64,000 bases of DNA, taken from assembly GCF_024666525.1 (NCBI RefSeq), contig NZ_CP088294.1:2232001-2296000 (forward strand), in the 5' to 3' direction. Every line of letters begins with the position of its first letter. Positions within the stretch are counted from its first letter, which is position 1. A program made the translations under genes and the position numbers. Source of the DNA: Pseudomonas sp. J452 (GTDB lineage: Bacteria; Pseudomonadota; Gammaproteobacteria; Pseudomonadales; Pseudomonadaceae). The notes beneath the pieces were generated by a model. The model saw only the letters and a program-made list of their open reading frames with translations. It ran no database searches and was not told where the DNA came from. Shown here in pieces: positions 2,894 to 16,847 of the stretch.

Positions 2894-3592
2894 TCACGCC
2901 CGCTCTGTCATGGCCGATAGCGCGACCGAGGTGGCGGCGGTGCGGGTTTCCACGCCGAGTTTGACGTACACATGCTCCAGGTGTTTGTTCACCGTGCGCG
3001 GGCTGAGGCCGAGGATGTCGCCGATGTCGCGGTTGGTCTTGCCGCAGGCCACCCAGCGCAGCACTTCCACTTCCCGTTCGGTGAGCTGGAAGCGCGCCGA
3101 GAGCGTGGCATAGGCCGGCTCGTCGTTCAGTGTCAGCGGTTGCGCCTGGCTGGCGGCGCGCGCCGTTTGCAGGATGCGCGCGGTGCGCAGGTGCGAGGCC
3201 ACGCGGGCGAGCACTTCCTCGGTATTGATCGGCTTGGTTACGTAGTCGATGCCGCCGGCGGCGAAGCCTTTGACCACATGCTCGCTGTCGGTCAGGGCGG
3301 TCATGAACAACACCGGAATATCGGCGGTGGCCGGGTCGGCCTTGATCCGCTGGCAGGTCTCGAAGCCGTCCAGCCCCGGCATCATCGCGTCGAGCAGAAT
3401 CAGGTCCGGGCGCCGGCGCTGGATGCGGCTCAGCGCGCTCAGGCCATCCAGGGCCACCAACACCATATAGCCCACTTCATCGAGGGCGTCGGAGAGCAGG
3501 GCCAGGTTGTCCGGGGTGTCGTCGACGATCAGGATCACCCCGCGCTCGGCCGCGCGGGTGTGAGGCTCAGAGGGATGGGGCAGCACGTTCAT
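2894..3592 (-). CDS. REC-LuxR response regulator of the amide/urea cluster
   Basis: A 232-residue response regulator. The receiver domain (residues about 17-135) has the acidic pair DD at 24-25, phospho-acceptor D68 (LILLDAMMPG) and the KP switch (VTKPIN). The C-terminal LuxR/NarL-type helix-turn-helix is at about 165-225 (LTEREVEVLRWVACGKTNRDI). The ATG lies 26 bases upstream of the stop of the hybrid kinase gene, so the two are overlapped and probably translationally coupled. It is the natural candidate to bind the TACGTC-N4-GACGTA palindromes upstream of urtA and fmdA; that link is inference from position. Confidence 0.92.
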   Translation of the reverse strand: MNVLPHPSEPHTRAAERGVILIVDDTPDNLALLSDALDEVGYMVLVALDGLSALSRIQRRRPDLILLDAMMPGLDGFETCQRIKADPATADIPVLFMTALTDSEHVVKGFAAGGIDYVTKPINTEEVLARVASHLRTARILQTARAASQAQPLTLNDEPAYATLSARFQLTEREVEVLRWVACGKTNRDIGDILGLSPRTVNKHLEHVYVKLGVETRTAATSVALSAMTERA

Positions 3593-6500
3593 GCTCGGCC
3601 TCCTTGAGTTGGCGGTTGAATTCGTCCAGGCGGTAGCTTTTCACCAGGGCCCGCAGGGGCGCGGTGAAGCCGGTGCTGGCGGGTGTCAGCCGATCAATGG
3701 CGTCGAGTTTCTCCTGAATGCCGCGGATATAACCCATGGCCCCGAGCTCGCGCAGTGCATCCAGGTCACTGGCGCTGGGCAGCACCAGGGCTGCGCGTGT
3801 CGGCGCAGGCAATGGCGCGGTGCGCCGCAGCCAGTGCAAATCCAGTTGCTTGTGGATGCGTTCGAGCAGTTCCGGGGTGTGCACCGGCTTGGCCAGGTAG
3901 TCGTTGCAGTCGGCGCTGACGCTGCGCTCACGGTCATCGGCAAAGGCATTGGCGGAGATCACGATGATCGGCGCCTGACTCTGGGCGTTGCGGCGAATCA
4001 GCCGGCTGGTTTCCCAGCCATCCATCTGCGGCATCGACAGATCCATCAGGATCAGATCGGGGTGCAGCAAGGCTGCCTGACGGATGGCTTCCTGACCGCT
4101 GGCGGCTTGGGCGATGTTGAAACCCAGCGGTTCGAGCATGCCGGCCAATACGCGGCGATGTTCGATATGGTCGTCCACCACCAGGATCAGCCGGCGCGGG
4201 CCCTGATAACCGATGATGTCGTGCTCCACATGCACCACCGCCTGGGGCACGCGCACCTCGGAGAGGAACAGGCGCACCTGGAAGCTGGTGCCCTGCTCCA
4301 GCACGCTTTTCACCGACAGCTCGCCGCCCATCAAGGAGGTGAGCATGCGCGTGATGGTCAGGCCCAGGCCGACGCCGTTGTCCTGGCGCATCAGGTCGCC
4401 GCGCTCGAACGGCTGGAAGATTCGCTCGATCTGCTCCGGGTCGATGCCGATGCCGGTGTCGACGATCTCGAAGCTGGCGGTTTCGCGCAGATAGCTGACG
4501 CGCAGACAGACTTCGCCGCTGTCGGTAAAGCGCACTGCGTTGCCGAGCAGGTTGATCAGAATCTGCCGCACGCGTTTCTCGTCGCCGCGCACCACCGCCG
4601 GCATGCGCCCGCTGGTGTCCAGGCGAAAGCGCAGGCCCTTCTCTTCGGCCTGCGGGCTGAACATGCGTTCGAGCTGGTGGATAAATTCCGGGAAGGGGAT
4701 TTCCGAGAGTTCCAGGTTGAGCTTGCCGGCCTCGATCTTGGCCACGTCGAGCAGCCCGTCTATCAGCGACAGCAGGTGCGAGCCGCTGCGAAAGATGGTG
4801 GCTAGGGCGTCCTGGTGCTGCCCCGGCATGCCGGCGTCGCGCTGCAGGATCTGCGTATAGCCGAGGATGCTGTTGAGCGGCGTGCGCAGCTCGTGGGACA
4901 GGCCGGTGACGTAGCGACTCTTGGCCGCGTTGGCGGCTTCGCTGGCCTCCTTGGCTTTCTGCAGGGCTTCGTCGGTTTTGCGGTGGGCCTCGATTTCCTG
5001 CATCAGCAGCTGGGTCTGGCGGTCGGATTCCTCCTGGGCCACCCGGCGGCTTTCGCGGGTCAGCACTACCCACCAGGCGAGGATCGCGGCGAACAGCGAG
5101 AGCGTCATAAAGGCCTTGAGAAAGGCCAGGTAGAGGGTGTCCTGCGCCTGCGGCGATTGCGCCACCAGCCCCTGGGACACCTGGCTGTAAATCAGCGCCA
5201 GGGCGACGAACAGCAGCAGTACCAGCACCGTCAGCAGGCCCAGGTACTGGGCCAGGCGGCTGTGCAGGCGCGGGATCGAGACCTGCGGGAATAGCCAGTG
5301 AATGAAATCGTCGAGTTGCTCGGACAGCCGTGCCCTGGGTTTGCAGGCATCGCCGCAGCGGGCATCGAGCGAGCAACACAGCGAGCAAATGGGCGTGCTG
5401 TAGGCCGGGCAGAAGGCCATGTCTTCGCTTTCAAAGGCATTGCTGCACAGGCCGCACTGCGCGGTGGTGGTCACGCCGAGCGGGTAGAGCAGCAACGGGT
5501 CGCTGCTACGCGCCAGGTAGTAGCGGCCGTTGGTCAGCCAGGCAATCAACGGCGCGAGCAGCAGGGCCGAACCCAGCGCAACGATCGGCGAGGCGGCCTG
5601 GGCAAAGGCGCCGAACAAGCCGCCGTGGGCCAGCACCGAGAGCAGTGAGGCGATCAGCATGGCGCCCACCCCCACCGGGTTGATGTCGTACAGGTGCGCG
5701 CGCTTGAATTCGATGTGTTTGGGTGACAGGCCCAGCGGCTTGTTGATCACCAGGTCGGCGACCACCGCGCCAATCCAGGCGATGGCGATGTTGGCATACA
5801 GGCCGAGCACTTCCTCGATCGCCTGGAACACCCCCAGCTCCATCAGGATCAGGGCAATGGCCACGTTGAACACCAGCCACACCACGCGACCGGGATGGCT
5901 GTGGGTGACGCGGGCGAAGAAGTTCGACCAGGCCAGCGAGCCGGCGTAGGCGTTGGTCAGGTTGATCTTCACCTGGCTGACGATGACGAACAGCACCATG
6001 GCCGCCAGCGCCCACTCCGGTGAGCTGAACACATAGTTGAAGGCCACCAGGTACATCTGCGTCGGCTCGGCAGCGCGCTCCATGGGGATTTCATGCTGCA
6101 GGGCGAGAAAAGCCAGGAAGGCCCCAGCGAGCATTTTCAGCGCCCCGGGGATGATCCAGCCGGGCCCGGCCATCAGCAGGGCGGCCCACCAGCGGGTGCG
6201 ATTGCGCCGGGTTTTTTCCGGCAAGAAGCGCAGGTAGTCGACCTGTTCGCCAATCTGCGTGACCAGCGCCAGCGCCACGGTACAGGCCGCGCCAAAGTGC
6301 AGCAGGTTGAAGGCGCCACCATCGCCCTCACGCCCGGCGAAGCTGGTCCAGTCGCTGAACGCCTCGGGGTTCTTGGCGATGACGAAGACGTACGGCAAAA
6401 ACAGCAGGAACAGCCACAGCGGCTGGCTCCACATCTGCAATCGGTTGATCAGGGTGATGCCATAGGCCACCAGGGGGATGACGATCAGCGAACAGATCAC

Positions 6501-6965
6501 ATAGGCCAGCGCCAGCGGGATGTTGAAGTACAGCTCCAGGGCCAGGGCCATGATCGCCGCCTCGAGGGCGAAGAACAGGAAGGTGAAGCTGGCGTAGATC
6601 AGCGAGGTGATGGTCGAGCCGATGTAGCCGAAACCGGCGCCACGGGTCAGCAGGTCCATGTCCACGCCATAGCGCGCCGCGTAGTAGCTGATCGGCAGGC
6701 CGGTGAGGAAGATCACCAGGCTCACCGCGAGAATGGCCCACAGGGTGTTGGTAAAGCCGTAGCTCAGCGCCAGGGCGCCGCCGATGGCCTCCAGGGCGAG
6801 AAACGACACCGCACTCAGAGCGGTGTTGGCGATGCGCAGCTCCGACCATTTGCGAAACGACTTGGGGGTGAAACGCAGGGCGTAGTCTTCCATGGTCTCG
6901 TCGGCGACCCAGCTGTTGTAGTCGCGGCGGATCTTGACGATGCGCTGGGTGCCGGTCGGTTGCAC
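3567..6965 (-). CDS. NCS1-type permease fused to hybrid histidine kinase
   Basis: A protein of about 1132 residues. Residues about 1-470 form a 12-helix membrane domain resembling purine-cytosine permeases (nucleobase:cation symporter-1). A cysteine-rich stretch follows (about 500-543: CGLC, CSLCC and further Cys), then two more membrane helices, a short coiled coil, a HisKA domain with H691 (LSHELRTPL), a catalytic domain with N and G boxes (NLLGNAVRF, DTGIGID, GVGLGL), a receiver with D975 (LILMDLSMP) and a C-terminal helical region. The GTG at 6965 is chosen: AGGA lies 9 bases upstream and the longer frame reads through a REP. An ATG at 7019 is an alternative. Its position next to the importer and formamidase suggests it senses an amide, urea or related nitrogen compound. 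Confidence 0.9.
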   Translation of the reverse strand: MQPTGTQRIVKIRRDYNSWVADETMEDYALRFTPKSFRKWSELRIANTALSAVSFLALEAIGGALALSYGFTNTLWAILAVSLVIFLTGLPISYYAARYGVDMDLLTRGAGFGYIGSTITSLIYASFTFLFFALEAAIMALALELYFNIPLALAYVICSLIVIPLVAYGITLINRLQMWSQPLWLFLLFLPYVFVIAKNPEAFSDWTSFAGREGDGGAFNLLHFGAACTVALALVTQIGEQVDYLRFLPEKTRRNRTRWWAALLMAGPGWIIPGALKMLAGAFLAFLALQHEIPMERAAEPTQMYLVAFNYVFSSPEWALAAMVLFVIVSQVKINLTNAYAGSLAWSNFFARVTHSHPGRVVWLVFNVAIALILMELGVFQAIEEVLGLYANIAIAWIGAVVADLVINKPLGLSPKHIEFKRAHLYDINPVGVGAMLIASLLSVLAHGGLFGAFAQAASPIVALGSALLLAPLIAWLTNGRYYLARSSDPLLLYPLGVTTTAQCGLCSNAFESEDMAFCPAYSTPICSLCCSLDARCGDACKPRARLSEQLDDFIHWLFPQVSIPRLHSRLAQYLGLLTVLVLLLFVALALIYSQVSQGLVAQSPQAQDTLYLAFLKAFMTLSLFAAILAWWVVLTRESRRVAQEESDRQTQLLMQEIEAHRKTDEALQKAKEASEAANAAKSRYVTGLSHELRTPLNSILGYTQILQRDAGMPGQHQDALATIFRSGSHLLSLIDGLLDVAKIEAGKLNLELSEIPFPEFIHQLERMFSPQAEEKGLRFRLDTSGRMPAVVRGDEKRVRQILINLLGNAVRFTDSGEVCLRVSYLRETASFEIVDTGIGIDPEQIERIFQPFERGDLMRQDNGVGLGLTITRMLTSLMGGELSVKSVLEQGTSFQVRLFLSEVRVPQAVVHVEHDIIGYQGPRRLILVVDDHIEHRRVLAGMLEPLGFNIAQAASGQEAIRQAALLHPDLILMDLSMPQMDGWETSRLIRRNAQSQAPIIVISANAFADDRERSVSADCNDYLAKPVHTPELLERIHKQLDLHWLRRTAPLPAPTRAALVLPSASDLDALRELGAMGYIRGIQEKLDAIDRLTPASTGFTAPLRALVKSYRLDEFNRQLKEAEHERAAPSL

Positions 6966-7028
6966 AGCGGTGATTCCTGGGAGTCGGAGCAAGGGATACG
7001 ACGAAGTAGCAACAACCATGCCCCGACC

Positions 7029-7096
7029 GTAGGAGCCAGCTTGCTGGCGATCAGCGTTGCCTCTAGCCGCGTGATCGCCAGCAAGCTGGCTCCTAC
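7029..7096. repeat. REP inverted pair
   Basis: GTAGGAGCCAGCTTGCTGGC and its inverted partner GCCAGCAAGCTGGCTCCTAC face each other with about 28 bases between them, just upstream of the sensor kinase start. Confidence 0.9.
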
Positions 7097-7156
7097 GGTA
7101 AGCGCGAGCGGGCGGGTTGCGGGCGTGAGCTTGCACCAGGGTGGGGCGTTGGGCAG

Positions 7157-7194
7157 TACGTCAGATGACGTATGCCGTTACGTCAACCTGCGTA
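7157..7194. promoter_or_regulatory. Tandem palindromic operator candidate upstream of urtA
   Basis: A perfect inverted repeat TACGTC-AGAT-GACGTA occupies 7157-7172. A second, imperfect one, TACGTC-AACC-TGCGTA, occupies 7179-7194, so the two are spaced 22 bases apart, close to two helical turns. The perfect form recurs upstream of fmdA with a different spacer. This fits a dimeric helix-turn-helix regulator; the adjacent LuxR-type response regulator is the likely binder (inference). Confidence 0.6.
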
Positions 7195-7290
7195 TACCGT
7201 CCGCGCCGGTGGCAAACGCATGCTGGTGGCGAACCGAACTGACAGCCGCAGGGCTGGCCGGGGAGGAAAACCACCCAGAGGAGCATGACC

Positions 7291-8523
7291 ATGGATTCAC
7301 CGACTCGCTTTCTCCCTCGTCGGCTAGCGTTGGGTGCTGCGGCACTCTCGCTGCTGGCGGCCACCGTGTTCGGCCAGATGGCCGTGGCGGCTGAGGTCAA
7401 CACCACCGGGCTTGCTGTCACCGACACCGAAGTCACGGTCGGCCAGCTGCACTCGGCCACCGGCACCATGGCCATTTCCGAAACCGGTTCGATCCAGGCC
7501 GAGCGCCTGGCCATCGAGCAGATCAATGCCAGCGGCGGCATCCTCGGCCGGCAGATCAAGATCATCCAGGAAGACGGCGCCTCCGACTGGCCGACCTTCG
7601 CCGAAAAAGCCAAGAAGCTGCTGGTTGGCGACAAGGTCGCCGCCGTGTTCGGCTGCTGGACTTCGGCCTCGCGCAAGGCGGTGCTGCCGGTGTTCGAGAA
7701 GGAAAACGGCCTGCTCTACTACCCGACCTTCTATGAAGGCCTGGAGCAGTCGAAGAACGTCATCTACACCGGCCAGGAAGCCACCCAGCAGATCCTTGCC
7801 GGCCTCGACTGGATCGCCAAGGAGAAGGGCGCCAAGACCTACTACCTGATCGGCTCGGACTACATCTGGCCGCGCACCTCGATGAAGATCGCCCGCAAGC
7901 ACATCGAAAACGTGCTCGGCGGCAAGGTGGTGGGCGAGGAGTACTACCCGCTGGGCAACACCCAGTTCGGCTCGCTGATCAACAAGGTCAAGCTGAAGAA
8001 GCCCGATGTGGTCTTCACCGCGGTGGTCGGCGGCTCCAACGTGGCCTTCTACAAGCAGATGAAAGCCGCTGGCGTGACCAGCGCCAAGCAGAACCTGCTG
8101 ACCCTGTCGGTGACCGAGGATGAACTGCTCGGCATTGGCGGCGAGAACATGGACGGTTTCTACGCCTCCATGAAGTACTTCCAGAGCCTCGACAACCCGA
8201 ACAACACTGCCTTCGTTGAAGCCTTCAAGGCCAAGTACGGCAAGGATGCAGTGATCGGTGACGTGACCCAGGCCGCCTACCTCGGCCCATGGCTGTGGAA
8301 AGCCGCGGTCGAGAAGGCCGGCAGCTTCGATGTCGACAAGGTCGCCGCAGCCTCCCCGGGCATCGAACTGGCCACCGCGCCAGAGAGCTACGTCAAGGTG
8401 CATGACAACCATCACCTGTGGAGCAAGACCCGCATCGGCCAGGTGCAGGCTGACGGCCAGTTCAAGGTGGTGTTCGAGTCCGACCTGATCGAGCCGAATC
8501 CTTTCCCCAAGGGTTACCAGTAA
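7291..8523 (+). CDS. urtA: Urea/short-chain amide ABC transporter, periplasmic binding protein (UrtA/FmdD-like)
   Basis: A 410-residue periplasmic binding protein of the Leu/Ile/Val-type (type I) fold. A signal peptide of about 33 residues with a twin-Arg-like start (RRLALGAAALSLLA) ends near AVAA. The mature part carries UrtA-family hallmarks such as VGQLHSATGTMAISE, VFGCWTSASRK and LLYYPTFYEGLEQS. The ATG at 7291 is preferred over 7285 because AGAGGAG then lies 7 bases upstream instead of 1. First gene of a urtABCDE-type operon followed by formamidase, so the ligand may be urea, formamide or another short amide; sequence alone does not settle which. Confidence 0.92.
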   Translation: MDSPTRFLPRRLALGAAALSLLAATVFGQMAVAAEVNTTGLAVTDTEVTVGQLHSATGTMAISETGSIQAERLAIEQINASGGILGRQIKIIQEDGASDWPTFAEKAKKLLVGDKVAAVFGCWTSASRKAVLPVFEKENGLLYYPTFYEGLEQSKNVIYTGQEATQQILAGLDWIAKEKGAKTYYLIGSDYIWPRTSMKIARKHIENVLGGKVVGEEYYPLGNTQFGSLINKVKLKKPDVVFTAVVGGSNVAFYKQMKAAGVTSAKQNLLTLSVTEDELLGIGGENMDGFYASMKYFQSLDNPNNTAFVEAFKAKYGKDAVIGDVTQAAYLGPWLWKAAVEKAGSFDVDKVAAASPGIELATAPESYVKVHDNHHLWSKTRIGQVQADGQFKVVFESDLIEPNPFPKGYQ

Positions 8524-8539
8524 GCGCTGTCGACCACCT

Positions 8540-8591
8540 GTAGGAGCCAGCGTGCTGGCGATGAATGGATCGCCGGTACGCCGGCTCCTGC
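8540..8591. repeat. Degenerate REP pair between urtA and urtB
   Basis: GTAGGAGCCAGCGTGCTGGCGAT is followed by a diverged inverted partner (GATCGCCGGTACGCCGGCTCCTGC). It can form a hairpin in the urtA-urtB intergenic mRNA. Confidence 0.75.
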
Positions 8592-8624
8592 GGGGTTTTC
8601 TCTTCTCTTCTGGGGACCATCATC

Positions 8625-9542
8625 ATGGAATGGCTATCGGAATTTGGTGCCATCGCGGCCATGCAGGGCTTCAACGGTTTGTCCGTGTTCTGCGTGCTGC
8701 TGCTGATGGCCCTGGGGCTGGCGATCATCTTCGGCCAGATGGGCGTGATCAACATGGCCCACGGTGAGTTCCTCACCATCGGCGCCTACACCACCTTTGT
8801 GGTTTCGGTGCTGACCGAGCAATACGCGCCGTTCTTCGGCCCGTACTACTTTTTTCTCGCCATCGTGCTGTCGTTTTTTATCGCCGGCGCGATTGGCTGG
8901 CTGGTGGAGTGGGCGATGATCAGCAAGCTCTATCAGCGCCCGCTGGATACCCTGCTGGCCACCTGGGGCCTGTCGCTGGTGATGCAGCAGGCCTTCCGCT
9001 CGATCTTCGGCGCCCGCGAAGTCAGCGCCACCCTGCCCGAGTGGCTGATGGGCTCGTGGAACCCCACCGAGGCCATCGACATTCCGCGTAACGGCCTGTT
9101 CGTCATGGGCCTGACGGTGCTGATCACCGGCATGATCTTCCTCATGCTCTACCGCTCGCGCTGGGGCCTGCAGGTGCGCGCCACGGTGCAGAACCGGGTG
9201 ATGAGCCGCGCGGTGGGGATCAATACCAAGAAGGTCGACCGCATGACCTTTGCCCTTGGCTGCGGCGTGGCCGGGGTGGCGGGCGCGGCCTTCACCACCA
9301 TCGGCTCGACCGGCCCGACTGCCGGTTCCCTGTACATCGTCGACACCTTCCTGGTGGTGGTGTTCGGCGGCGCGTCGAGCCTGCTCGGCACCATCGCCTC
9401 GGCCTTCAGCATTGCCCAGGCACAGTCATTGATGGAGTTCTTCATGAGCGGTTCGATGGCCAAGGTGTTCACCCTGTCGGCGGTGATCCTGATTCTGATG
9501 ATGCGCCCGCAGGGGTTGTTCTCGATCAAGGTGCGCAAGTGA
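8625..9542 (+). CDS. urtB: Urea/amide ABC transporter permease UrtB-like
   Basis: A 305-residue inner-membrane permease of the LivH/BPD_transp_2 family, with about eight hydrophobic helices and the family signature GQMGVINMAHGEFLTIGAY. The ATG at 8625 gives the expected N-terminus (MEWLSEFGAIA); the longer in-frame start at 8565 reads through the REP. The upstream GGGGACC is only a weak ribosome site. It should pair with UrtC as a heterodimeric channel powered by UrtD and UrtE. Confidence 0.92.
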   Translation: MEWLSEFGAIAAMQGFNGLSVFCVLLLMALGLAIIFGQMGVINMAHGEFLTIGAYTTFVVSVLTEQYAPFFGPYYFFLAIVLSFFIAGAIGWLVEWAMISKLYQRPLDTLLATWGLSLVMQQAFRSIFGAREVSATLPEWLMGSWNPTEAIDIPRNGLFVMGLTVLITGMIFLMLYRSRWGLQVRATVQNRVMSRAVGINTKKVDRMTFALGCGVAGVAGAAFTTIGSTGPTAGSLYIVDTFLVVVFGGASSLLGTIASAFSIAQAQSLMEFFMSGSMAKVFTLSAVILILMMRPQGLFSIKVRK

Positions 9543-9617: not shown

Positions 9618-9648
9618 AGGGTGTGTTGTGCAATCAGGGGGCCCGGAC

Positions 9649-10821
9649 ATGAACCCGACACTCGATAAGTTTCTTGGCGGCAAGCAGGGTGCGATTGGCC
9701 TGGCGGTGCTGGCCACATTGATCCTGGTGGTGTTCCCGCTGGCGCTGGACGCCTTTCGCCTGAACATGGTCGGCAAGTACCTGACCTACGCCTTTGTCGC
9801 CGTGGGCCTGGTGCTGTGCTGGGGCTATGGCGGCATTCTCAGCCTCGGCCAGGGCGTGTTCTTCGGCCTCGGCGGCTACTGCATGGCGATGTTTCTCAAG
9901 CTCGAAGCCAGCGACCCGGAAAGCACCAAGATCCAGTCCACCCCCGGTATTCCGGACTTCATGGACTGGAACCAGATCACCGAACTGCCGCTGCTCTGGC
10001 AGCCGTTCCACAGCTTTGGCTTCACCCTGCTGGCGGTGATCGCGGTGCCGGTGATCCTGGCGCTGGTGATCGGCGTAGCGATGTTCAAGCGCCGCGTCGG
10101 TGACGTGTACTTCTCCATCGTCACCCAGGCGATTGCGCTGATCCTCACCGTACTGATCATCGGCCAGCAGGGCCTGACCGGCGGGGTCAACGGCATCACC
10201 GACCTGAAAACCCTGATGGGCTGGGATATCCGCGACGACAGCTCGAAGATGATCCTCTACTTCATCAATGCCTTCCTGTTGTTTGGCTGCATCCTGATCG
10301 GCCGTTTCATCCTCGCCTCCAAGCTCGGCCGGTTGCTGATGGCGATGCGCGACAAGGAAGAGCGGGTGCGTTTCTCCGGCTACGACGTGGCCAGCTTCAA
10401 GATCTTCGTGTTCTGCGTGGCGGCAGCGTTCTCCGCTATCGGCGGGGCGATGTTCGCCTTGCAGGTGGGCTTCATGTCGCCAAGCTTCGTCGGCATCGTG
10501 CCGTCGATCGAGATGGTGATCTTCGCCGCCGTCGGCGGGCGCATGTCGCTGCTCGGCGCGGTGTACGGCGCGCTGCTGGTCAACTACGGCAAGACCTACT
10601 TTTCCGAAACCTTCCCCGAGTTGTGGCTGTACCTGATGGGCGGGTTGTTTATCGCCGTGGTCATGTACTTCCCCAACGGCCTCGCCGGCCTGTGGGAAAG
10701 CCACGGGCGCAAATGGCTGGGCAAGCTCAGCCGCAAACCCGCAGCGGCCAGGACTCCCTCGCCAGCCGCAGAAACCCCGGCGGCCACTAGCCAACCCCGT
10801 GAACTGGAGACCACCCCATGA
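9649..10821 (+). CDS. urtC: Urea/amide ABC transporter permease UrtC-like
   Basis: A 390-residue LivM/BPD_transp_2 permease with about nine membrane helices and the family motif CWGYGGILSLGQGVFFGLGGY. The ATG at 9649 follows an AGGGGG ribosome site and gives MNPTLDKFLGG; the upstream in-frame start at 9628 has no advantage. The C-terminus is a basic, Pro/Ala-rich cytoplasmic tail. The stop overlaps the start of urtD (ATGA), so translation is probably coupled. Confidence 0.92.
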   Translation: MNPTLDKFLGGKQGAIGLAVLATLILVVFPLALDAFRLNMVGKYLTYAFVAVGLVLCWGYGGILSLGQGVFFGLGGYCMAMFLKLEASDPESTKIQSTPGIPDFMDWNQITELPLLWQPFHSFGFTLLAVIAVPVILALVIGVAMFKRRVGDVYFSIVTQAIALILTVLIIGQQGLTGGVNGITDLKTLMGWDIRDDSSKMILYFINAFLLFGCILIGRFILASKLGRLLMAMRDKEERVRFSGYDVASFKIFVFCVAAAFSAIGGAMFALQVGFMSPSFVGIVPSIEMVIFAAVGGRMSLLGAVYGALLVNYGKTYFSETFPELWLYLMGGLFIAVVMYFPNGLAGLWESHGRKWLGKLSRKPAAARTPSPAAETPAATSQPRELETTP

Positions 10822-11579
10822 GCCAGCCAAGCGGATTTCAGATGCCCAAACCGGTGCTGGCCATCGAAGGCCTGAGCGTGTCGTTCGATGGCTTCAAGGC
10901 GGTGGACGACCTCAATCTGTACATCGACCGCAACGAAGTACGGGTGGTGATCGGCCCCAACGGCGCCGGCAAGACCACGGTACTGGACCTGATCTGCGGC
11001 AAGACCAAAGCCACCGCCGGCAGCATCCAGTTCGAGAACCGCGAGCTGACCAAGATGCGCGAGTTCGACATCGTCCGTGCCGGGGTTGGGCGCAAGTTCC
11101 AGAACCCCTCGATCTACGAAAACCTCACGGTGTTCGAGAACCTGGAAATGTCCTACCCCAAGGGCCGCAAGGTATTCGGCGCGCTGTTCTTCAAACGCAG
11201 TGCCGAGGTGATGGCGCGGGTCGAGGAGGTGGCCGCGGAAATCCTCTTGGCCGAGCAGCTGTATATGCAGGCCGACCTGCTCTCGCACGGGCAGAAGCAG
11301 TGGCTGGAAATCGGCATGCTGCTGATGCAGGACCCGGCGCTGCTGATGCTCGACGAGCCGGTAGCGGGCATGAGCGTCAACGAACGCCTGCAGACCGCCG
11401 AGCTGCTCAAGCGCATCAGCAAAGGCCGTTCGGTGCTGGTCATCGAGCACGACATGGAGTTCGTCAAAAGCATCGCGCACAAGGTCACCGTGCTGCACCA
11501 GGGCAAGGTACTGGCCGAGGGCAGCATGGAATCGGTGCAGAGCAATCCCAAAGTCATCGAGGTGTATCTGGGCCATTGA
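10818..11579 (+). CDS. urtD: Urea/amide ABC transporter ATP-binding protein UrtD-like
   Basis: A 253-residue ATPase of the LivG type. It has Walker A GPNGAGKTT, signature LSHGQKQWLEIG (an atypical SHGQ, as in UrtD proteins), Walker B LLMLDEPVAG and the switch His in VIEHDMEF. The start overlaps the urtC stop by 4 bases. It energises UrtBC together with UrtE on the cytoplasmic face. Confidence 0.93.
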   Translation: MSQPSGFQMPKPVLAIEGLSVSFDGFKAVDDLNLYIDRNEVRVVIGPNGAGKTTVLDLICGKTKATAGSIQFENRELTKMREFDIVRAGVGRKFQNPSIYENLTVFENLEMSYPKGRKVFGALFFKRSAEVMARVEEVAAEILLAEQLYMQADLLSHGQKQWLEIGMLLMQDPALLMLDEPVAGMSVNERLQTAELLKRISKGRSVLVIEHDMEFVKSIAHKVTVLHQGKVLAEGSMESVQSNPKVIEVYLGH

Positions 11580-11742: not shown

Positions 11743-12432
11743 ATGTTCAAGATCAGCAACCTCGCTTCCGGTTACGGCCAGAGCCAGATCCTCCATGACC
11801 TCAACCTGAACGTGGAAAAGCGCGAAATCGTCGCGGTCATGGGCCGCAACGGCATGGGCAAGACCACCCTGTTCAAGAGCCTGATGGGCGTACTGCCGCA
11901 ATGGGGTGGGCAGATCAGCGTGGACGGTCGCGACATCTCCAAACTGGAAACCCACCAGCGGGTGGAGAGCGGCATCGCCTACGTGCCCCAGGGGCGGATG
12001 ATCTTCCCCAGCATGAGCGTGCTGGAGAACATCCAGACCGGCCTGCCGGCCGCCGCCAAGGGCAAGGTGCCGGAAGACCTCTATGCGCTGTTCCCGGTGC
12101 TGTTTGATATGCGCTCGCGCAAGGGCGGCAACCTCTCTGGCGGCCAGCAGCAACAGCTGGCTATCGCCCGCGCGCTGGCCACCAATCCCAAGGTGCTACT
12201 GCTCGATGAGCCAACCGAGGGCATTCAGCCGTCGATCATCAAGGACATCGCCCGCACCCTGAAGGAGATCCGCAACCTGCGTGACCTGACCATCGTGGTC
12301 TCCGAGCAGGTGCTGTCCTTCACCCTGGAAATCGCCGACCGCTTCCTGGTCATCGAGAAGGGCAAGTTCGTGGTCGAGGAAACCCGCGACAGGGTCGACG
12401 AGGCGACCATCAGCCGCTACCTGTCGGTGTGA
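11743..12432 (+). CDS. urtE: Urea/amide ABC transporter ATP-binding protein UrtE-like
   Basis: A 229-residue ATPase of the LivF type with Walker A GRNGMGKTT, signature LSGGQQQQLAIARAL, Walker B LLLDEPTEGIQPSI and a final switch region. The ATG at 11743 follows AAGGAG with 7-base spacing. It completes the five-gene importer and is followed, after 326 bases with an operator-like site, by the formamidase gene. Confidence 0.93.
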   Translation: MFKISNLASGYGQSQILHDLNLNVEKREIVAVMGRNGMGKTTLFKSLMGVLPQWGGQISVDGRDISKLETHQRVESGIAYVPQGRMIFPSMSVLENIQTGLPAAAKGKVPEDLYALFPVLFDMRSRKGGNLSGGQQQQLAIARALATNPKVLLLDEPTEGIQPSIIKDIARTLKEIRNLRDLTIVVSEQVLSFTLEIADRFLVIEKGKFVVEETRDRVDEATISRYLSV

Positions 12433-12654: not shown

Positions 12655-12670
12655 TACGTCATCCGACGTA
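12655..12670. promoter_or_regulatory. Palindromic operator candidate upstream of fmdA
   Basis: The perfect inverted repeat TACGTC-ATCC-GACGTA has the same half-sites and 4-base spacer length as the site upstream of urtA, with a different spacer sequence. A weaker CACGTC half-site lies 23 bases upstream (12632). Its centre is about 96 bases before the fmdA ATG. Likely target of the cluster's response regulator (inference). Confidence 0.6.
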
Positions 12671-12758: not shown

Positions 12759-13988
12759 ATGACCGAAACGCTGATCAAGGTCAATCTCAACCAGCCCGCC
12801 ACCGAGAACGAGCAGATCCACAACCGCTGGCATCCGGATATTCCGATGGCCTGCTGGGTCAAGCCGGGTGACGATTTCATCCTCGAAACCTACGACTGGA
12901 CCGCTGGCGCGATCAAAAACAACGACGACGCCAGCGACGTGCGTGATGTGGATCTGTCCACCGTGCATTACCTGTCGGGCCCGGTGGGCGTACACGGCGC
13001 CGAGCCGGGTGACCTGCTGGTGGTCGACCTGCTCGACATCGGCGCCATGGCCGACTCGCAGTGGGGCTTCAACGGCTTCTTCTCCAAGCAGAACGGCGGT
13101 GGTTTTCTGACCGACCACTTCCCGATGGCGCAGAAGGCCATCTGGGACTTCAAGGGCATGTTCACCAGCAGCCGGCACATTCCGGGGGTTAACTTCGCCG
13201 GCCTGATCCATCCCGGCCTGATCGGCTGCCTGCCGGACCACAAGATGCTCGCCGACTGGAACAAGCGCGAGCAGGAACTGATCGACAGCGACCCGCACCG
13301 CGTGCCGGCCCTGGCCAACCCGCCGATGGCGCCGACCGCGCACATGGGCAAGATGAAGGGCGAGGCCCGCGACCTGGCGGCACTGACCGGCGCACGCACC
13401 GTGCCGCCGCGCGAGCATGGCGGCAACTGCGATATCAAGGACCTGTCGCGCGGCTCGAAGATCTTCTTCCCGGTCTATGTTGCCGGCGCGGGCCTCTCGG
13501 TGGGCGACCTGCACTTCAGCCAGGGCGACGGCGAAATCACCTTCTGCGGCGCCATCGAAATGGCCGGCTGGGTGCACATGAAGGTCGAGCTGATCAAGGG
13601 CGGCATGGCCAAGTACGGAATCAAGAACCCGGTGTTCAAGCCGAGCCCGATCACCCCGCACTACAACAACTACCTGATCTTCGAAGGCATCTCGGTGGAC
13701 GAGGCCGGCAAGCAGCACTACCTGGACGTCAACATCGCCTACAAGCAGGCCTGCCTGAATGCCATCAACTACCTGACCAAGTTCGGCTACTCGCCGGCCC
13801 AGGGCTATGCGCTGCTCGGCTCGGCGCCGGTGCAGGGGCATATCAGCGGCATCGTCGACGTGCCCAACGCCTGCGCCACGCTATGGCTGCCGACCGACAT
13901 CTTCGACTTCGACATCAACCCCAATGCCTCCGGCCCGATCAAGCACCTCGACGGCAGCATCGACCTGCCCATCGCGCCGGACAAATGA
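12759..13988 (+). CDS. fmdA: Formamidase (acetamidase/formamidase family)
   Basis: A 409-residue member of the FmdA_AmdA family, which hydrolyses formamide (and weakly other short amides) to ammonium and formate in the cytoplasm. The N-terminus (MTETLIKVNLNQPATENEQIHNRWHP) and segments such as GPVGVHGAEPGDLLVVD, REHGGNCDIKDL and SQGDGEITFCGAIE are family hallmarks, including the Asp/His/Glu residues expected to bind the metal. The ATG follows AGGAG with 7-base spacing. Length is full. It lies downstream of the amide/urea importer and upstream of fmdB. Confidence 0.95.
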   Translation: MTETLIKVNLNQPATENEQIHNRWHPDIPMACWVKPGDDFILETYDWTAGAIKNNDDASDVRDVDLSTVHYLSGPVGVHGAEPGDLLVVDLLDIGAMADSQWGFNGFFSKQNGGGFLTDHFPMAQKAIWDFKGMFTSSRHIPGVNFAGLIHPGLIGCLPDHKMLADWNKREQELIDSDPHRVPALANPPMAPTAHMGKMKGEARDLAALTGARTVPPREHGGNCDIKDLSRGSKIFFPVYVAGAGLSVGDLHFSQGDGEITFCGAIEMAGWVHMKVELIKGGMAKYGIKNPVFKPSPITPHYNNYLIFEGISVDEAGKQHYLDVNIAYKQACLNAINYLTKFGYSPAQGYALLGSAPVQGHISGIVDVPNACATLWLPTDIFDFDINPNASGPIKHLDGSIDLPIAPDK

Positions 13989-14121
13989 GTTCCCTACCCG
14001 GGCGGGGATGGGGCTTTGGACGGCGTTCATCCCGGCCCGGGTGGCGAACACTCGGGACCTGTCACACCGCACTACCGGCTTGGCGGCCACGCGCCGCCGA
14101 ACCGCTGCCCAGGAGTCCGTT

Positions 14122-14469
14122 ATGCCGATCTATGAATACGACTGTGCCGACTGTGGCGACTTCACCCGCTTGCGGCCGATGGCCGAGCGCGACCAGCCCT
14201 GCGATTGCCCGTCCTGCGGCATGCAGAGTGGCCGGGTGATTCTTTCCGCACCGTGCCTGGCGACCATGCCTGGCAGCCAGCGCCGCGCCATCGCGGCCAA
14301 CGAGCGCAGCGCCAACGCGCCGCAGACGCTCGACGAATACCAGCAGACGCGCAAGCACCCCAAGGGCTGCGGCTGCTGCACGCCGAACAAACCCCTGGCG
14401 CCAACCAAGGCCAACCCGCATGCCATAAAAGGCAAACCGGCCGGCCGGCCGTGGATGATCAGTCACTGA
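14122..14469 (+). CDS. fmdB: FmdB-family zinc-ribbon protein
   Basis: A 115-residue protein. The N-terminal zinc ribbon has C8 and C11 (CADC) paired with CPSC, the FmdB/CxxC_CXXC_SSSS fold. A basic, Ala-rich middle and a Cys cluster near the C-terminus (GCGCC) follow. The ATG at 14122 is preceded by AGGAG at 6 bases. FmdB is linked to regulation of formamidase in methylotrophs, but its biochemical role is not established. The pairing with fmdA supports the name. Confidence 0.88.
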   Translation: MPIYEYDCADCGDFTRLRPMAERDQPCDCPSCGMQSGRVILSAPCLATMPGSQRRAIAANERSANAPQTLDEYQQTRKHPKGCGCCTPNKPLAPTKANPHAIKGKPAGRPWMISH

Positions 14470-14496
14470 CGCGACGTGCCAACCCATCCCATCCCT

Positions 14497-14520
14497 GTAG
14501 GAGCCAGCTTGCTGGCGATC
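14497..14520 (+). repeat. REP monomer
   Basis: GTAGGAGCCAGCTTGCTGGC followed by GATC. First of three REP copies on the 3' side of the REP-associated transposase gene. Confidence 0.9.
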
Positions 14521-14607
14521 TGAGTGGTTATCGTCTGGGCAATACCGCACCCAGAATGCACGGCGTTATTGCTACAGATGCACTGAGATAAAGAGGTTTA
14601 GCGCGTT

Positions 14608-14631
14608 GATCGCCAGCAAGCTGGCTCCTAC
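14608..14631 (-). repeat. REP monomer, inverted
   Basis: The inverse complement of the copy at 14497, about 87 bases away, giving a widely spaced inverted pair. Confidence 0.9.
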
Positions 14632-14655
14632 ACCGGCAGCACCGTGCCGTTCTTT

Positions 14656-14679
14656 GTAGGAGCCAGCTTGCTGGCGATC
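14656..14679 (+). repeat. REP monomer
   Basis: A third copy in the same orientation as 14497, ending 18 bases before the transposase stop codon. Confidence 0.9.
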
Positions 14680-14697
14680 CGGCCTATCAGGTCACAA

Positions 14698-15162
14698 TCA
14701 GATGGCATCCCACAGCGGATAATCGCCCAGCCGCTGAACTAACCCGGCACGCAATGGATTGGCGACGACGTAACGTGCGACTGCTTGCAAGTCTTCTTCT
14801 GCGCGCAAGGCGTGATCATGAAAACCCTTCAGCCAGACCTTCTCGCCTGTCCTGCCCGAGACCCTGTTGATGGTAATCGCGCTGCGTGATTTGGTGTTCT
14901 GCATAAGCTGCGACAGCGGCATCGCCCCCAGACCGACCAACCAATGCAGATGGTCCGGCATCACCACCCAGGCCAGTGATTCGACTCCACCTGCGTCATG
15001 CAGGTAGCGCATTTCCTTCACCAGCAAGCGGGCTAGCTGCCAATTCTGGAAAACGGCTTTGCGCTCATGGGTAATGGCGGTCAGCAGATAGATTCTGCCG
15101 GGTTCGCAGATACGCCCGCGTCGCAGCGCATGACCGCGATGGGCGAAGAGGCTGGAATCCAT
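14698..15162 (-). mobile_element. REP-associated tyrosine transposase (RAYT, Y1/HUH type)
   Basis: A 154-residue single-domain HUH transposase. H71 and H73 (VMPDHLHWL) form the metal-binding HUH motif and Y131 (ARYVVANPLRAG) is the nicking tyrosine; the start (GRIYLLTAITHERKAVF) fits the family. RAYTs nick and rejoin single-stranded REP/BIME DNA and are thought to spread REP elements. This gene is bracketed by REP copies on both sides (three at 14497-14679, an inverted pair at 15187-15255) belonging to the dominant REP family of the window. All catalytic residues are present, so it looks intact. Confidence 0.9.
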
Positions 15163-15186
15163 TCCAGAAGCTCCCTGAGTTCAGTT

Positions 15187-15255
15187 GTAGGAGCCAGCTT
15201 GCTGGCGATCAGCGTGCATATAAGCAGCTCGGATCGCCAGCAAGCTGGCTCCTAC
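15187..15255. repeat. REP inverted pair upstream of the RAYT gene
   Basis: GTAGGAGCCAGCTTGCTGGC faces its complement GCCAGCAAGCTGGCTCCTAC across about 29 bases, between the transposase start and the prfC stop. It completes the bracket of REPs around the RAYT gene. Confidence 0.9.
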
Positions 15256-15263
15256 AGGGTAGG

Positions 15264-16847
<1,584 letters not shown>

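Follow-up and report, generated by a model that had tools for sequence, protein, structure and literature searches.

The stretch of DNA analysed here, 64,000 nucleotides of Pseudomonas sp. J452 (contig NZ_CP088294.1, positions 2,232,001 to 2,296,000; 'the window'), carries a gene for a hybrid sensor histidine kinase with an NCS1-type permease domain as its input half. The gene (3567..6965, minus strand, GTG start at 6965) encodes 1132 residues, which is also the gene-model length in its closest homologues (best 120 of 8000 scored), and the frame given in a first-pass annotation, made by a model from the letters alone, coincides with the gene models of these relatives. Numbered from the GTG codon as residue 1, the permease domain with its twelve predicted transmembrane (TM) helices occupies residues 22–486 (5508..6902) and is followed by a module of eight cysteines, a predicted zinc finger (residues 504–542; 5340..5456), and by two further predicted TM helices (5046..5261) which run into the kinase coiled coil. 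HisKA (4725..4925; PF00512, E 7.8e-18), HATPase_c (4263..4586; PF02518, E 3.2e-26) and a receiver domain (3855..4187; PF00072, E 5.7e-27) make up the rest, all on the minus strand, so that the full hybrid histidine kinase already recognized in the first pass is seen with strong Pfam matches. The two extra helices also reappear in the AlphaFold2 model, where they are long and separate the Cys module from the kinase. As had likewise been noted, the kinase gene is paired by an overlap, here of 26 bases, with the gene of a LuxR-type response regulator (2894..3592, minus strand), whose product contains a receiver (PF00072) and a GerE helix-turn-helix (PF00196) domain, i.e. is of LuxR/NarL type.

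An important question is whether the N-terminal half really is an NCS1 permease, as the first-pass annotation claimed. Several searches speak against this: there is no Pfam Transp_cyt_pur (PF02133) match even at E≤10, a genome scan with PF02133 at the same threshold finds two other loci and not the kinase locus, and the family profile retrieves no PDB sequence of the family; altogether, neither the permease domain nor the Cys module has a convincing sequence match in Pfam or the PDB. Yet profile–profile and fold comparison override this blank. With hhalign, the family profile aligns to that of 30 PF02133 members with a probability of 99.6 (E 1e-24, 416 columns). The AlphaFold2 model (mean predicted local distance difference test score (pLDDT) 83) is closest in Foldseek to Mhp1 (1.3e-9) and CodB (3.6e-9), the next other family following at 1.2e-5, and structure comparison with VIA-align gives Z values of 33.7 for CodB and 28.3 for Mhp1, with AgcS next at 23.1. 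The input half thus shows a 12-TM LeuT-type fold nearest to CodB and Mhp1 and, as judged from profiles and the model, is a divergent NCS1-type permease domain; the lack of an NCS1 hit holds for Pfam, and it is overturned by the profile and fold comparisons. An SLC5 (SSF) domain is not found, neither by hhalign against 27 SSS symporters (probability 1.4) nor by Pfam. The region where a STAC domain would stand is blank in Pfam at E≤10 and is modelled as the Cys module plus two long helices, the STAC profile itself not having been compared directly.

Divergent from the kinase gene and on the plus strand lies the amide/urea importer operon expected from the first pass, with all of urtABCDE and fmdA scoring above the NCBIfam cut-offs: urtA for an fmd-type substrate-binding protein (7285..8523; TIGR03407, 530.9 bits against a cut-off of 492.75, at exception level), urtB (8565..9542; TIGR03409), urtC (9628..10821; TIGR03408), urtD (10818..11579; TIGR03411), urtE (11743..12432; TIGR03410) and the formamidase gene fmdA (12759..13988; NF045496, 757.9 bits). 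A small Cys-rich protein, putatively FmdB-like, is encoded at 14122..14469 (plus strand) inside an open reading frame of 13807–14469. Two REP-like inverted repeats with nearly identical arms (GTAGGAGCCAGCTTGCTGGCGATC) were noticed by eye, one in the kinase leader (7028–7098) and one just past the regulator gene (about 2797–2868).

How far this linkage extends was surveyed by tblastn in flanks of up to 10 kb around the best 80 of 592 confirmed homologous loci, with class-2 neighbour identities verified by NCBIfam. An fmd-type UrtA is present in 43 of the 80 loci, 32 of them with FmdA, and the regulator is found at 40% identity or more in 67; the FmdB-like gene is a conserved neighbour in 31. 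Amidase genes occur in L177, L180, L181 and L182. The urt–fmd linkage proposed in the first pass is therefore retained in these 43 loci, while the rest are mostly linked to urease instead (urease genes without fmd-type UrtA in 20, a urease-type UrtA in 8 more). The broader theme of amides and urea stands, the adjacent genes being those of a formamidase, an amidase or urease, but nine loci lack any tested neighbour, a point to be set against it. In a tree of the permease parts of 66 sequences (alignment A2; 54 kinases and 12 kinase-free permeases, 53 of the 80 loci having entered), the neighbourhood labels require 7 changes compared with 29.7 in shuffles, with an urt–fmd group that holds the window kinase, a urease group and a kinase-free group. 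Exceptions are L160, an urt–fmd locus inside the urease clade, and L101 at the base of that clade. Two genomes (G379 with L172 and L173, G246 with L174 and L175) have one kinase of each kind. At a larger scale, matches at E≤1e-5 come from 57 of the 398 Pseudomonadota genomes in the sample, with strong ones in 52. Some matches stand apart: L168 (G687) has two permease-bearing family matches 8 kb apart, one of them beside urtABCDE with the palindrome described below; one cyanobacterial locus (L161 9962–12928, Phormidium) combines the permease and Cys module with a different kinase type that by eye has no receiver, and none of the tested neighbours; and a close homologue filed under a eukaryote protein set (P0094) is likely to be bacterial contamination.

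A palindrome links these genes at the level of their promoters. A perfect copy (TACGTCAGATGACGTA, 7157..7172), predicted to be the regulator site, lies between the kinase gene and urtA, with a second, imperfect site (TACGTCAACCTGCGTA, 7179..7194) 22 bp from the first, and another perfect copy (TACGTCATCCGACGTA, 12655..12670) is located upstream of fmdA. The 4.86 Mb genome has exactly two perfect copies, those at the kinase/urtA and fmdA promoters, which makes the control of urtA and fmdA put forward in the first pass likely. Leaving aside 9 of the 80 loci that have no recognized kinase start, the consensus TACGTYRNNYRACGTA occurs with at most one mismatch within 430 bases upstream of the kinase gene in 37 of 42 urt–fmd loci, compared with 1 of 29 others and none in 50 shuffle rounds. 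An imperfect second site at a distance of exactly 22 bp is shared by the window with L085, L086, L087, L090 and L091. Among 52 kinase-bearing genomes of the phylum sample, 25 of 29 matches lie at most 15 kb from the kinase gene (18 genomes with a near match), as do all 16 matches in 11 kinase-bearing genomes of relatives (nine with a near match).

Other counts weigh on the opposite side. At one mismatch the J452 genome has 3 sites (the third at genome position 262899) compared with 6 for a reversed control; among 57 relatives the pattern matches 16 genomes and the reversed control 15; stray matches occur in kinase-less genomes (23 of 346 in the phylum sample, 7 of 46 relatives); and the palindrome is missing from five urt–fmd loci (L137, L141, L147, L157 and L160). 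It is, then, the position of the palindrome, rather than its mere presence, that counts as evidence. Among the 29 scannable loci outside the urt–fmd set, 28 are likewise without the palindrome, which implies that the urease branch uses another site; dyad counting upstream of the kinase genes yielded no palindrome for it, only stretches common to related loci.

Taken together, these data make it probable that a kinase with a divergent NCS1-type input domain and a predicted zinc finger senses short-chain amides or urea and, via its LuxR-type regulator, activates urtABCDE and fmdA at the palindromes. Occupation of the central pocket by an amide or urea would switch the permease half from one conformation to another; this change would be relayed to the kinase through the zinc finger and the two extra helices, and the kinase would phosphorylate the regulator, which would bind TACGTYRNNYRACGTA and thereby activate the kinase–regulator genes themselves as well as urtABCDE and fmdA. 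From its genomic context the ligand is likely to be a short-chain amide, or urea in the urease-linked relatives. In line with this, the importers encoded by fmd-type urt clusters have been argued to take up formamide or acetamide (PMC3098086).

The ion site and a set of sister proteins bear on whether such a domain still transports. The residue map is a profile alignment, which limits individual assignments, with CodB numbering taken from a near-identical homologue and the CodB paper (PMC9379551). The hydroxyl ligands of the Na2 site are lost: CodB Thr278 is replaced by Lys333 in 66 of 66 sequences, with Lys in 0 of 30 NCS1 proteins, and CodB Thr279 by Ile, again in 66 of 66, although Ile also occurs in 11 of the 30. 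Since an invariant Lys occupies the place of a Na2 threonine, the domain is predicted not to be sodium-coupled. Kinase-free relatives (12 were used, from the best 120 of 5987 scored) include a 559-residue permease (P0122) in a genome with the source name Acidihalobacter prosperus (G700), which ends with the Cys module. Like its counterparts in two other genomes of this genus (G800 and G801), it is encoded divergently from a kinase–regulator pair, with the palindrome in between; fmdA and a gene for an amidase come next, so that it occupies the position elsewhere held by urtABCDE. Across the three genomes the kinase-free permease is 53–54% identical to the permease domain of the kinase found there, and its placement also favours an amide or urea as the ligand. 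For A. prosperus and two other Acidihalobacter, urease has been reported and a urea transporter has not, according to the accessible part of PMC9062700. The kinase-free permease is thus a candidate urea importer in Acidihalobacter, though it stands beside amidases here. Further permeases were also seen, namely a second permease-type frame in G801 (L268 8899–10512; 582 residues, with 51–53% identity to its kinase-free relative) that has no fmd, urt or urease genes nearby, and a distant one in G193 (L176 7997–9346; 26–29% identity, 552-residue frame) near weak amidase and UrtA matches; in L165 a VWA-domain protein (14278–16158) is encoded downstream of permease, formamidase and amidase genes.

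That the window protein is itself a working amide/urea importer which signals by transport flux, as a true transceptor and not a static receptor, is a real if rather doubtful possibility. Apart from the kinase-free relatives that replace the ATP-binding cassette (ABC) importer, it finds a precedent in CbrA, an SLC5-type sensor described as a proton-coupled transceptor that transports histidine with Lys196 occupying its Na2 site (PMC13022988, part of the text). However, 15 fixed differences separate the kinases from the kinase-free permeases, including Leu58 for Asp58 in TM1, which could mean that proton coupling has been lost.

The Cys module might alternatively be the actual sensor. Its spacing is C-x2-C-x11-C-x7-C-x2-C-C-x5-C-x3-C, and the 'at least eight' cysteines counted between permease and kinase in the first pass are exactly eight, all of them invariant in the 66 aligned sequences; the same Cys order is found in 70 of 71 kinases. 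In a separate model (core pLDDT near 89) the module consists of hairpins and then a short helix whose start coincides with the second CxxC, an arrangement known from treble-clef zinc fingers. A fold search gave no significant match, the weak ones being mostly RING, PHD, FYVE and other zinc folds, and the model leads us to predict a zinc finger; sequence matches to zinc fingers were dismissed as built on repeated CxxC fragments. As a widespread independent domain the module was also rejected: a scan of 369 genomes of the class gave 20 matches at E≤1.5e-9, spread over 17 genomes, the next being at E 0.0036; frames of at least 1007 residues account for 18 of them, a 661-residue frame on an 8-kb contig for one and the kinase-free permease for the last. 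We consider it unlikely that the permease half serves to anchor a metal or redox switch formed by the module, in which case zinc or oxidation, and not amides, would govern the operon. The invariance of the eight cysteines fits that idea, as does the share of invariant columns in the 54 kinases, 16 of 39 in the module versus 0 of 26 in the linker after it and 2 of 72 in the extra helix pair, but the permease is equally conserved (mean majority 0.76 versus 0.78 for the module), the neighbours are amide or urea genes, and the module also ends permeases with no kinase to inform. Because it ends these as well, we regard it as part of the permease unit, and not as the separate second input first suggested.

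Within the pocket, the TM6 pair Asp243/Arg246 corresponds to CodB Asp213/Arg216 and is kept in 66 of 66 sequences (28 and 30 of 30 in NCS1), as is Asn335, the equivalent of CodB Asn280 in TM8. The aromatic pair that sandwiches the substrate in CodB is not conserved, with Trp108 (TM3) replaced by Phe in 63 of 66 and Phe204 (TM6) by Ile or Val in 65, and an invariant Glu135 (66 of 66) stands at the position of Mhp1 Gln121. Pocket residues are identical across urt–fmd kinases, urease kinases and kinase-free permeases, and up to residue 545 the two kinds of kinase are set apart by only seven nearly fixed differences, most of them conservative, which makes a similar ligand likely for both. That the domain instead recognizes a nucleobase, hydantoin or allantoin and reports purine breakdown with its nitrogen ending as urea appears quite improbable: the NCS1-type fold and the name purine-cytosine permease-like in source records suggest it, and aromatics at these columns vary among true NCS1 proteins too, but the TM6 and TM3 exchanges and the invariant Glu argue against it, and formamidase and amidase are not known to take part in purine breakdown, the loci not having been screened for purine genes. 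The changed aromatic pair and the amide and urease neighbours similarly make the hydantoin-like ligand of the first pass less likely, purine and hydantoin genes not having been part of the search.

The kinase can be placed alongside a small number of known systems, here cited from the accessible parts of the respective papers. The SLC5/STAC kinases CbrA, CrbS and RpuS (PMC13022988, PMC5715377, PMC9100948) also combine a transporter-type N-terminal domain with a histidine kinase, in most cases of hybrid type; CrbS and RpuS likewise have a LuxR-type partner, and CbrA shares the Lys in the Na2 site. In contrast to them, the window kinase is of NCS1 type, carries the Cys module and a pair of TM helices in place of STAC and PAS, and has amide/urea genes as its predicted targets. 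CrbS/CrbR is the nearest tested parallel, as CrbR works through an inverted repeat (ACTU motif) in the promoters it controls, and activation depends on this repeat (PMC5715377), although the window palindrome differs from it. CodB and Mhp1 (PMC9379551) are nearest in fold and profile and share the TM6 Asp/Arg pair and TM8 Asn280, whereas the window domain escapes PF02133, has an altered aromatic pair and Lys for the Na2 Thr278, and is fused to a Cys module and kinase. An Amt-type ammonium sensor kinase of Kuenenia (PMC5764959) also uses a nitrogen-compound transporter as kinase input, with an unrelated transporter family and ligand. Bradyrhizobium fmd-type urt clusters beside formamidase or amidase (PMC3098086) have the same importer and enzyme genes, the transporter rather than a regulator being discussed there. 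While source records already label such proteins as kinase plus purine-cytosine permease-like, our searches of open-licence papers found no study on the NCS1–kinase fusion, the Cys module or the palindromic site.

The few known transporter-headed kinases rely on SLC5 or Amt domains, and the fusion kinase adds an NCS1-type variant to them. Tentatively, and with confidence not far short of even, we propose that an ancestral sodium-independent amide/urea permease with its own C-terminal zinc finger was captured by a kinase and gave rise to a widespread, undescribed transceptor family that senses amides (urt–fmd) and urea (urease) for their use in many Pseudomonadota, with the kinase-free sister as importer in acidophiles that have no recognized urea transporter. 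The NCS1-type kinase, its linked Cys module, a two-site regulon in the J452 genome and kinase-free sisters in the same operon position would allow a direct test of how a LeuT-type transporter is turned into a receptor. For 52 of the 398 Pseudomonadota genomes in the sample, our findings also point to a regulator of amide/urea use, and they offer a candidate importer for those Acidihalobacter species which have urease but no recognized urea transporter (PMC9062700).

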